This document shows positions 55,639 through 58,786 of a stretch of 64,000 nucleotides of DNA, in pieces. The notes beneath the pieces are model-generated. The model ran no database searches and was not told where the DNA came from. It worked only from the letters and a program-made list of their open reading frames with translations. Every line of letters begins with the position of its first letter. Position 1 is the stretch's first letter. Both the position numbers and the translations under genes were made by a program. This DNA comes from Clostridia bacterium (GTDB taxonomy: Bacteria > Bacillota > Clostridia > Oscillospirales > CAG-272): positions 1-64,000 of the forward strand of contig JAFULR010000017.1 in NCBI GenBank assembly GCA_017483195.1. The letters are read 5' to 3'.

Positions 55639-56286
55639 ATGAAACAAGTTCAGAACGCTTCATTTGACAACAGAGCGATAGAAGAACTTTGCAGACGTTA
55701 CCGTGATCGCGGAATGAATTACAGCGGCGCGCGAGAGAGTGCGGAGCAGGAGGAGAATGAGATCTGTTCAAGAACGGTAGCTCCTCGGTCGTACAAAACC
55801 TCAAGTGAAGCTGCATATGAAAAATACAAATATAAGAACGGAGTCGAAAACGGTCGAAGATATATGACCGAGGGAGATTTCGTGAATTTCTATCGCGCGA
55901 CGCGCGAGTACGCGCCCACGTATGATGACCGTTTGGATACGGCGGTCATACTTGATAATATAGATCGAAAGAGGTACAAGAAGCACGTTCCCGACAAGGT
56001 GGTTAAAAAGGACGTTAAGGCTCAGCTTAAGGTTGAGGCACAAAAAGCAAACCCAAAACCAAAGCGGACGGCAGAGCAGGATCTTGTGCAAGCAAATGAG
56101 ATTCGAAAAGCTCCCTCCAAGATCGATAAAAAAACAAAAAAGGCTGATGTATCACATAAAAAGTCTGACAACGATTTTAAAAACAATAACGAGCCTGTGA
56201 GTGTTACTTCAATGATTACGTTTGCCGCAGTTGCGCTCTCGTTTATCCTGATAGTTGGCTCGGGTGTGATATTCAGCATTATATAG
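55639..56286 (+). CDS. Single-pass protein in the ftsL position, tail-anchored
   Basis: The 215-residue protein occupies the slot of ftsL between rsmH and the penicillin-binding protein. FtsL has a short cytoplasmic part, one membrane segment and an outside coiled coil. Here there is a long hydrophilic, Lys-, Arg- and Asn-rich N-terminal part (about 190 residues), a single membrane segment at about 192-213 (MITFAAVALSFILIVGSGVI), and no outside part. It might be a diverged FtsL that keeps only the membrane piece, or another division protein. AAAGGA precedes the ATG. I see no further coding sequence after it in other frames. Confidence 0.6.
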   Translation: MKQVQNASFDNRAIEELCRRYRDRGMNYSGARESAEQEENEICSRTVAPRSYKTSSEAAYEKYKYKNGVENGRRYMTEGDFVNFYRATREYAPTYDDRLDTAVILDNIDRKRYKKHVPDKVVKKDVKAQLKVEAQKANPKPKRTAEQDLVQANEIRKAPSKIDKKTKKADVSHKKSDNDFKNNNEPVSVTSMITFAAVALSFILIVGSGVIFSII

Positions 56287-56310
56287 CCCATTAAACCAAA
56301 TACCTAAACT

Positions 56311-56360
56311 GATTTTTGAAGATCAAAAATCATAAAGCCACTCATCATCGAATATGATGA
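56311..56360 (+). other. Two small perfect hairpins after the ftsL-position gene
   Basis: GATTTTTGA (56311-56319) and TCAAAAATC (56323-56331) form nine pairs with a three-base loop. TCATCAT (56342-56348) and ATGATGA (56354-56360) form seven pairs with a five-base loop. Both precede the larger three-way structure and may belong to the same RNA. Neither has a T-run. Confidence 0.45.
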
Positions 56361-56393
56361 AGAGGGCAGATCTCTTAATTTGCCACATTTGAA

Positions 56394-56499
56394 AAACGGT
56401 GAAGAGCAGGTCGGTGTCTTTCGTGGAGGTTAGACACACGGCACGGAGCAAAAGCAACGGCCCATTTGCTTGAATCCGGCTCTCACCGTTTATTTTTTC
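56394..56499 (+). ncRNA. Predicted three-way-junction RNA ending in a T-run, before the PBP gene
   Basis: AAACGGTGA (56394-56402) pairs with TCACCGTTT (56483-56491), continued by GAGC (56404-56407) with GCTC (56479-56482) and GG with CC. Inside are two hairpins: GTGTCT (56414-56419) with AGACAC (56432-56437), and AGCAAA (56447-56452) with TTTGCT (56465-56470). The last stem runs into TTTATTTTTTC. No known riboswitch, SRP, 6S or T-box consensus was recognised. It could be a regulatory leader with a conditional terminator for the downstream cell-wall genes, or a processed small RNA. Confidence 0.5.
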
Positions 56500-56530
56500 T
56501 AAATCGGTGCAGATTAAGGAGCGTGATGGT

Positions 56531-58786
56531 ATGGGTATTGGTCGTGTGAGCGGCACAACGTTAAAAAGAGCATTAGCGGTCCTTGTGAGTATGTTGCTGG
56601 TATTTGCAATGCTGCTCGGAAGGATATTGATCATACAAACGGTCGATTATGACCGATATTTAAAAAAAGTCATCTATCAGATGAATACGCAAAGCACTCT
56701 TCAAGCCGAGCGCGGAATTATTTACGATGCTAACGGTGATGTGCTTGCAACAAACGTTACAACATACAGAGTATTTATCTCGCCGTCATCGATAAAAGCC
56801 AAGCAGAAAAGCGCTGAAGGCGGTGTCCGATATGCCGAGGATATTTCGAAAGGACTTTCCGATATTCTTGGGATCGATTATGACACGGTTTACAAGCAAA
56901 CCACCTATACCGCTTATTTGGACAGAACGGTTCAAAAAAATCTCTCTGATGAAAAGGCGGACGAGGTAAGAGCTTTTATCAACGAAAACGGCTATCACGA
57001 TATGGTCTTTCTTGAGGCCACGAGCAAAAGATATTATCCAAACGGATCGCTTGGCTCGGCGGTGATAGGATTTACAAATTCCGATGGTAAAGGCATATAC
57101 GGTCTTGAGGCGTTTTACAATGAGGATCTTAGCGGTACAAACGGTTATTACCTTACCGCCAGGGATTCATTTGGTAACCGGATGCCACAGGAGTATGACA
57201 CATATATTCCTGCCGAAAACGGAAGCAACATTACTACTACGATAGATTCATATATACAGCGCGCGCTTGAAGAACAGTTGATTGCAACGGTTAACGAAAG
57301 CGGAGCGCAGAACAGGGCATGCGGTATAGTGGTGAACGTGAAAACGGGCGCTATACTTGCTATGGCAACGGTCCCCGGCTTTGATCTTAACGATCCGTGG
57401 ATTCTTAATGATTATTACAGTGGCTTTCTTTTGAGTGATGGATACGCTCAGGGGAGCGACGAATATAAGAAGGCATATCAGAATTATCTATTCGATATGT
57501 GGCGGAACAAGGCGGTTTCCGATTCATACATACCGGGATCTACTTTTAAGATCCTGACCTCATCAATGGCACTTAGCGAAAATAAGGTCAGCCTTTCGGG
57601 CGATACGGTATGCTGCGGTGGATCATTAAGGCTTTTTGGCTACACGATACACTGTCATAAGGTCAAGGGACACGGTGTCTTAAGCTTTGCACAGGGACTT
57701 GTTCAATCCTGCAACGTGTGGTTTATGACACTTGGAGAGAGGCTTGGAATAAGCAAATTCTATGAGTATTTCAAATCCTTTGGATATCTTGAAAAGACCG
57801 GCATTGATCTTCCCGGTGAAGGAAACAGCGTTGTAAAAACCAAAAATGCTATGACAGCTCTCGACCTTGCGATATACGCGTTCGGTCAGAACTTTAATAT
57901 AACTCCTATTCAACACATAATGGCGATAGCCGCTGCCGCGAACGGCGGGTATCTTCTTGAGCCTTATCTGGTTGAGAAGGTAACGGATCGCGACGGAAAC
58001 GTTACTTATACTCATCAGGCACAGGTCAAGCGTCGGGTAATAAGTGAAGAAGTTTGCAAAACACTTGCTGAGATACTTGAGGACGGTGTTTCCGGTGACG
58101 GAGGCGCAAAAAACGCCTACGTTGCGGGCTATAAAATAGCCGCTAAAACCGGAACGAGTGAAAAGAAGGGAACGGAGATACGCGTTGAGGACGTAAAGGC
58201 TTACGTTTGCTCTTGCGTTGCGTTTGCCCCTGCGGACGATCCCGAGATCGCGGTGCTTATGATGGTTGATGAGCCTAGCAATGGTGTGCTTTACGGAAGC
58301 GTTATTGCCGCGCCTTACGTTGGAGCTTTTCTTGAAACTGTGCTCCCATATATCGGAGTACAAAGAGATGAGGCTCTTGTGAACGATGTGGCGGTTCCGA
58401 ATTTTGAAGATATGAAGCTTAACGATGCCAAAAAGGCTGCAAGTGAGCTTGGATACAAGGTGAACGTCAAGGGCAATGGCGAGTACGTAACGAGTCAGAT
58501 CCCGCGAGCGGAGACCGTGATAGATAAAAATAACAAGATAATAACGTTCTACACGGGAACCTCCCGTGAGGATAAGGGAATCGCAGTGCCCGAGCTTATC
58601 GGAAAAAGCGTTTATGTTGCAAACCGCCTCTTAGCGGATGCGGGCTTGAACGTGAGCATAGTTGGTACCGACAACTATCTTAGCGGTGGCGGTGCTACCG
58701 TTATGGAGCAATCGATACCTGCAGGAACACTCGTTTCCGAGGGAACGGCAATTACTATCAGAATCAGATACTCCGATCCCGACTGA
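56531..58786 (+). CDS. Class B penicillin-binding protein with two PASTA domains (FtsI/SpoVD type)
   Basis: The 751-residue transpeptidase crosslinks peptidoglycan at the septum. An N-terminal membrane segment lies near 15-37 (ALAVLVSMLLVFAMLLGRIL), followed by a dimerisation domain. The transpeptidase has SxxK in PGSTFKI near 335, SxN in VQSCNVWF near 395, and KTGT in AAKTGTSEK near 540. Two PASTA domains (VPNFEDMKLNDA and VPELIGKSVYVANRLL) end the protein. The ATG at 56531 is ten bases after AAGGAG. An earlier in-frame GTG at 56507 lies upstream of that site. SpoVD and vegetative FtsI cannot be told apart here. Confidence 0.93.
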   Translation: MGIGRVSGTTLKRALAVLVSMLLVFAMLLGRILIIQTVDYDRYLKKVIYQMNTQSTLQAERGIIYDANGDVLATNVTTYRVFISPSSIKAKQKSAEGGVRYAEDISKGLSDILGIDYDTVYKQTTYTAYLDRTVQKNLSDEKADEVRAFINENGYHDMVFLEATSKRYYPNGSLGSAVIGFTNSDGKGIYGLEAFYNEDLSGTNGYYLTARDSFGNRMPQEYDTYIPAENGSNITTTIDSYIQRALEEQLIATVNESGAQNRACGIVVNVKTGAILAMATVPGFDLNDPWILNDYYSGFLLSDGYAQGSDEYKKAYQNYLFDMWRNKAVSDSYIPGSTFKILTSSMALSENKVSLSGDTVCCGGSLRLFGYTIHCHKVKGHGVLSFAQGLVQSCNVWFMTLGERLGISKFYEYFKSFGYLEKTGIDLPGEGNSVVKTKNAMTALDLAIYAFGQNFNITPIQHIMAIAAAANGGYLLEPYLVEKVTDRDGNVTYTHQAQVKRRVISEEVCKTLAEILEDGVSGDGGAKNAYVAGYKIAAKTGTSEKKGTEIRVEDVKAYVCSCVAFAPADDPEIAVLMMVDEPSNGVLYGSVIAAPYVGAFLETVLPYIGVQRDEALVNDVAVPNFEDMKLNDAKKAASELGYKVNVKGNGEYVTSQIPRAETVIDKNNKIITFYTGTSREDKGIAVPELIGKSVYVANRLLADAGLNVSIVGTDNYLSGGGATVMEQSIPAGTLVSEGTAITIRIRYSDPD

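Follow-up and report, generated by a model that had tools for sequence, protein, structure and literature searches.

Within the division and cell-wall (dcw) cluster the boundary between ftsL and the gene for the following penicillin-binding protein (PBP) is usually regarded as seamless, and the locus described here raises the question of what occupies this boundary in a gut Clostridia species, and what it does there. The window, by which we mean the whole 64,000-nt stretch of contig JAFULR010000017.1 that was analysed, has an open reading frame in the ftsL position that ends at 56286. The next gene, for the PBP, begins with the ATG at 56531 and has a Shine-Dalgarno (SD) sequence AAGGAG at 56516-56521, so that 244 nt lie between the two, in good agreement with the 240 bases first reported. 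A Pfam search of the neighbouring genes identified MraZ, RsmH/MraW, a class B PBP with two PASTA domains and a Mur ligase, and returned no match for the ftsL-position membrane protein. The genes that flank the gap are:

55639-56286, + strand: ftsL-position gene, whose product is without the extracytoplasmic DivIC/FtsL coiled coil
56531-58786, + strand: class B PBP of the SpoVD/FtsI type with two PASTA domains, downstream of the RNA

The gap as a whole folds (RNAfold) to -85.4 kcal/mol, against -55.8 +/- 4.5 kcal/mol in dinucleotide shuffles (z = -6.6, with 0 of 200 shuffles as good), and the three-way junction alone reaches -44.6 kcal/mol (z = -5.0 vs shuffles). The original prediction had described a closed three-way junction of 106 bases whose last stem enters a U-tract some 30 bases ahead of the PBP gene, and this is what we observe: the junction covers 56394-56491 (98 nt, or about 106 when the U-tract is counted) and its closing helix P1 leads into TTATTTTTTC, 31 nt from the ATG. 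It had also described two perfect hairpins, which is correct for hairpin 1 (10 bp, 3-nt loop) and incorrect for hairpin 2, which contains a bulge and a mismatch. From 5' to 3' the elements are:

56310-56332, + strand: hairpin 1, TGATTTTTGA/TCAAAAATCA, just 3' of the ftsL stop codon
56337-56367, + strand: hairpin 2, seen only in the window's genus
56374-56383, + strand: 5' strand of outer helix P0, CTTAATTTGC, pairing with 56509-56518
56394-56407, + strand: 5' strand of P1, AAACGGTGA-A-GAGC, with AACGGTG invariant across three genera
56410-56442, + strand: P2 hairpin, 8 of its 9 modelled pairs changing on both sides
56444-56478, + strand: P3 hairpin, with a CGGA/TCCG base and an AAGCAA/TTGCTT apical stem
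56458-56465, + strand: P3 octaloop, CGGCCCAT, unchanged in 10 species save C/T at base 1
56480-56491, + strand: 3' strand of P1, CTCTCACCGTTT, continuing directly into the U-tract
56490-56499, + strand: U-tract, TTATTTTTTC, a terminator-like tail
56509-56518, + strand: 3' strand of P0, GCAGATTAAG, overlapping the first bases of the SD AAGGAG

The folded RNA in the ftsL-PBP gap is genuine, as confirmed by covariation among ten species of gut Clostridia that belong to three genera. Blastn found the gap in 5/5 genomes of the window's genus and in 0/34 other genomes of the family and order, and a covariance model built from the window's genus (R1) located five further species, divided between two additional genera of that family, and from the two sets together a ten-species model (R2) was made; in all ten the RNA occupies the ftsL-PBP gap. 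When these species were aligned to the model, 17 of 32 pairs had changed on both sides (0/500 shuffles) and 96.2% of cells could pair, with none of the 500 shuffles reaching any of five measures. As such an alignment leans to its model, we also folded a sequence-only MAFFT alignment, from which RNAalifold recovered P1, the P2 base and the P3 apical stem; double changes were seen in 8 of the 18 pairs. The genus-only alignment gave 5 such pairs, a value equalled in 25/500 shuffles, and because of this weaker control the covariation case rests on the three-genus set. The covariance search in Clostridia that the original prediction had called for has thus found both sequence and structure conserved, at the same place, in 10 species.

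Conservation is distributed unevenly over the RNA. P1 is nearly invariant in the ten species (consensus RAACGGTG...CACCGTTY) and is followed in most by a TTYATTTTT or TTTTTTT tail (TTTATTTATTTACTT in one), while the P2 stem is wholly rewritten between species and its loop is conserved within the window's genus only. Of the 6 pairs in the P3 apical stem, 5 show changes in both partners, giving AAGCAA/TTGCTT, ACACGG/CCGTGT, TTTGCGG/CCGCAAA and TTCGGCGG/CTGCCGAA, and the 8-nt octaloop (YGGCCCAU) stays fixed while the stem that carries it is rewritten. Upstream, the hairpin 1 stem is kept by compensating changes within the window's genus, and across the same genus the hairpin 2 stem varies with compensation around a conserved CGAATA(A)TAT loop. 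The P0 helix is predicted only after read-through, and a P0-like outer pairing is found, besides the window's genus, in both g85 species. SD sequestration by P0 was considered and rejected, as SD pairing was slightly greater than in upstream-shuffled controls with most leaders falling within the shuffle range.

The RNA is present as a single copy per genome. Searches with R1 and R2 of samples of 295-395 family and 295-394 order genomes returned only the three genera, and R2 run over 395 family and 394 order genomes found no further genus above noise; in genus g19 it is present in 3 of 4 genomes, the fourth being 59% complete. A GTDB-wide pattern scan (one genome per species) gave 40 stretches, the 9 from Clostridia being contigs that were already known and the 31 from elsewhere failing the covariance model. 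Weak matches of ~50 nt (L016-L019) proved to be plain terminators, near which neither rsmH nor a PBP gene was present, and a mobile or multi-copy element was dismissed on the single genomic copy and on the absence of pattern matches in viral contigs. The relatives that carry the RNA are uncultured assemblies, several from ruminant gut. Mapped onto a quick RsmH tree, its presence requires 4 changes across many weak forks, with starred branches forcing at least 2, and either a single origin with losses or repeated gain may account for this pattern. No known class had been recognised in the original prediction, and in accord with this the window has no match to any Rfam 15 family at the gathering score; relaxing the threshold to E up to 10 yields low-scoring snoRNA matches only, none over the junction. 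In the main texts of the structured-RNA and attenuator surveys consulted, ftsL, pbpB/spoVD and penicillin-binding proteins go unmentioned apart from the mraW RNA motif, listed there for Actinomycetales (PMC2864571). As listed, that motif is similarly a candidate for a cis element and belongs to the same cluster of genes (PMC2864571), and is set apart by its name and listing (mraW, Actinomycetales), the junction RNA having no Rfam match.

We favour, with a probability of about 50%, the reading that the junction RNA is an elaborated, partial intrinsic terminator or attenuator at the ftsL|PBP boundary which limits the output of the downstream cell-wall genes. It has the features of an intrinsic terminator in that a G+C-containing P1 (13 bp, one bulge) is followed by TTATTTTTTC, and a U-rich tail comes directly after P1 in 10/10 species. 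The distance from stem end to start codon is about 25-50 nt in the ten leaders, none of which has a promoter above shuffles, and no good promoter lies between the U-tract and the PBP gene. Given this short distance and the lack of a promoter above shuffles, transcription of the PBP gene must cross the U-tract. A sigma-A promoter in front of the junction was also looked for and was no better than shuffles in 10/10. We envisage an element that acts in cis at a boundary within the division/cell-wall cluster: as polymerase crosses the ftsL|PBP boundary P2 and P3 would form first, P1 would then shut beside the U-tract, and termination would presumably occur there and be partial, with some polymerases stopping and the remainder reading through into PBP-murE-murF-mraY and beyond. 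The outcome would be an mraZ-rsmH-ftsL output set apart from the PBP-mur output, and an upstream transcript left with a stable folded 3' end. Several points count against a terminator. A stem enclosing ~90 nt would be an unusual one; a strong stop ahead of the PBP and mur genes would do harm if it were neither partial nor regulated; a simple terminator scan makes no call at the junction because the loop is longer than 8 nt; and the invariant octaloop and P1 sequence exceed what a plain terminator needs.

The gaps of relatives help place this element. The original prediction held that division clusters have almost no gap here, which is untrue in this lineage: extracted from 74 family loci the gap has a median of 130 nt (the ftsL and PBP boundaries were set by script, and single lengths may be off), and other families of the order, represented by 25 genomes, have a median gap of 104 nt. 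By a broad criterion (gaps of 40-360 nt with the ten junction leaders counted in, and a stem at least as stable as -12 kcal/mol) 54 of 68 family gaps have a closed stem before a T-rich tail vs 28 in shuffles, and by a strict criterion with the ten leaders removed 34 of 58 contain terminator-like stems, where shuffles average 5.4 and reach 10 at most. The strict test is also passed by 13 of the 25 gaps from other families, a set that has no shuffle control, several of them having a GAGTGAG...CTGACTC stem. Many members of one gut Clostridia order, then, have a terminator-like stem at the ftsL|PBP boundary. These plain stems share with the junction RNA its position and U-tract, usually 20-65 nt before the PBP start, and differ in being diverse in sequence and without the P2/P3 junction or octaloop; in G021, however, P1 itself is kept (CGGTGAAGAGC/GCTCCTCACCG then TTTGGCTTTTT), capped by a short loop with no P2/P3. 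Our proposal is that the simple stem of relatives may have been elaborated into a three-way junction in three genera. The plain stems at the same place, and G021 with the same P1 under a short loop, would also suit an unregulated terminator or an RNase-processing or stability stem in which P2, P3 and the octaloop merely aid folding. We consider this unlikely, since a neutral cap would be expected to drift, whereas the octaloop is invariant among genera whose RsmH is only about 60% identical and its stem is rewritten.

The same survey yielded several further features. Other branched structures with U-tails occupy this gap in L065 (G069), L073 (G086) and L141 (G088); those of G069 and G086, which are junction-like, have no match to R2, and in G086 TTGACA-N17-TATAAT stands just upstream. 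In L113, L115 and L105 good promoter-like sequences follow the terminator-like stem and precede the PBP gene, and judged by these sequences the clusters look as if they were split into two transcription units at that point.

If a terminator-like end is accepted, is it controlled? The invariant octaloop hints at some partner, and control of the RNA is possible; under the attenuator reading YGGCCCAU would probably bind a protein or RNA through which either the degree of stopping or the stability is adjusted. The original prediction had gone further and suggested a ligand- or protein-controlled switch, which is so far unsupported, there being no antiterminator pairing of P1 conserved in the ten leaders, and P1 being very stable. 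An antiterminator was sought by folding transcripts of the ten leaders cut before the P1 3' strand, which revealed no two mutually exclusive conserved pairings: the partners of the P1 5' strand differ in each species, and for this reason a classical terminator/antiterminator exchange is unsupported. A metabolite or ion riboswitch, or a T-box or leader-like switch, in which a ligand at the junction or octaloop picks terminator or antiterminator, is accordingly very improbable in our estimate. A junction with conserved nucleotides and a terminator-like end upstream of a biosynthetic operon would fit such a switch, as would the stability added by the upstream region in the window's genus. However, the P1 5' strand has no conserved alternative pairing, the conserved bases are mostly in P1 and the distal loop rather than in the junction core, the RNA is confined to 3 genera, and there is no Rfam match. 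Somewhat less doubtful, and still tentative, is the idea that the RNA represents a new class of regulated terminator, with P1 closing the three-way junction and the octaloop bound by a dedicated protein or RNA that signals cell-wall or division state, gating PBP-mur.

The octaloop could alternatively face outward, with the locus serving as the source of a trans-acting small RNA: stopping at the U-tract would release an RNA of ~110 nt whose octaloop pairs with targets, as would processing between hairpin 2 and P1. A stable closed fold, a U-tail and an invariant unpaired octaloop on a changing stem are all consistent with this, and there is precedent in UpsM, a terminated transcript of the dcw 5' leader in Rhodobacter sphaeroides that has been read as trans-acting (PMC5089854), and in the pairing of StsR with UpsM and the dcw leader, which affects dcw expression both in cis and in trans (PMC8307010). 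Yet the RNA is never found outside the ftsL-PBP gap in any genome, and no promoter above shuffles lies ahead of it in the ten leaders, both of which make this explanation unlikely. UpsM and the extended dcw leader of Rhodobacteraceae likewise combine a structured dcw leader with a Rho-independent-terminator end, family restriction and read-through into division genes (PMC5089854, PMC8307010). However, UpsM precedes mraZ in a 268-nt 5' UTR of alphaproteobacteria, whereas the junction RNA lies inside the cluster before the PBP gene of Clostridia and is set apart by its three-way junction and invariant octaloop; it is not a leader before mraZ in Rhodobacteraceae and we claim no sequence relation. 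By analogy, UpsM is its nearest working counterpart, not a family member.

If the junction RNA does stop polymerase, it would offer a tangible point of entry to how these bacteria adjust the levels of PBP and Mur enzymes independently of FtsL. The PBP encoded in the dcw cluster of Clostridioides difficile is SpoVD, the enzyme used in sporulation (PMC10693644), and such a role would be a reason for separate control.

The division genes of the window's species are themselves unusual, in that the FtsQ-FtsL-DivIC subcomplex looks to have been lost. Its ftsL-position protein stops after the membrane helix, while three same-genus relatives carry an extracytoplasmic DivIC-type coil. A PF04977 search found no DivIC in the window's genome (G000), G123 or G165 and noise only in G004, and a POTRA_1 search found no convincing FtsQ in any of these four; G004 and the two g85 genomes have no convincing FtsQ or DivIC. 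With gene names assigned by sequence recognition and synteny, the yabP-yabQ-trxB locus of G000 is without divIC, which in G003 sits between yabQ and trxB, and ftsZ directly follows murG without ftsQ in G000 (L162, G000:C15:62500-76000; L168). It is likewise the next gene in G004, while G003 has an ORF with an FtsQ domain after murG. Because the RNA occurs in species with and without these genes, the RNA and the apparent loss of FtsQ/DivIC are independent. In the window's genome the murG-ftsZ interval holds a strong terminator-like hairpin with a T-tract (L162 2648-2700). Lastly, GGAATA-N12..15-GAATA, which we take to resemble a sigma-H type promoter, lies over the ftsL end in ~16 of 68 family gaps (e.g. 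L083, L090, L095, L096) vs 0.24 expected from mononucleotide shuffles, an excess that may be inflated by the overlap of its first half with coding sequence.
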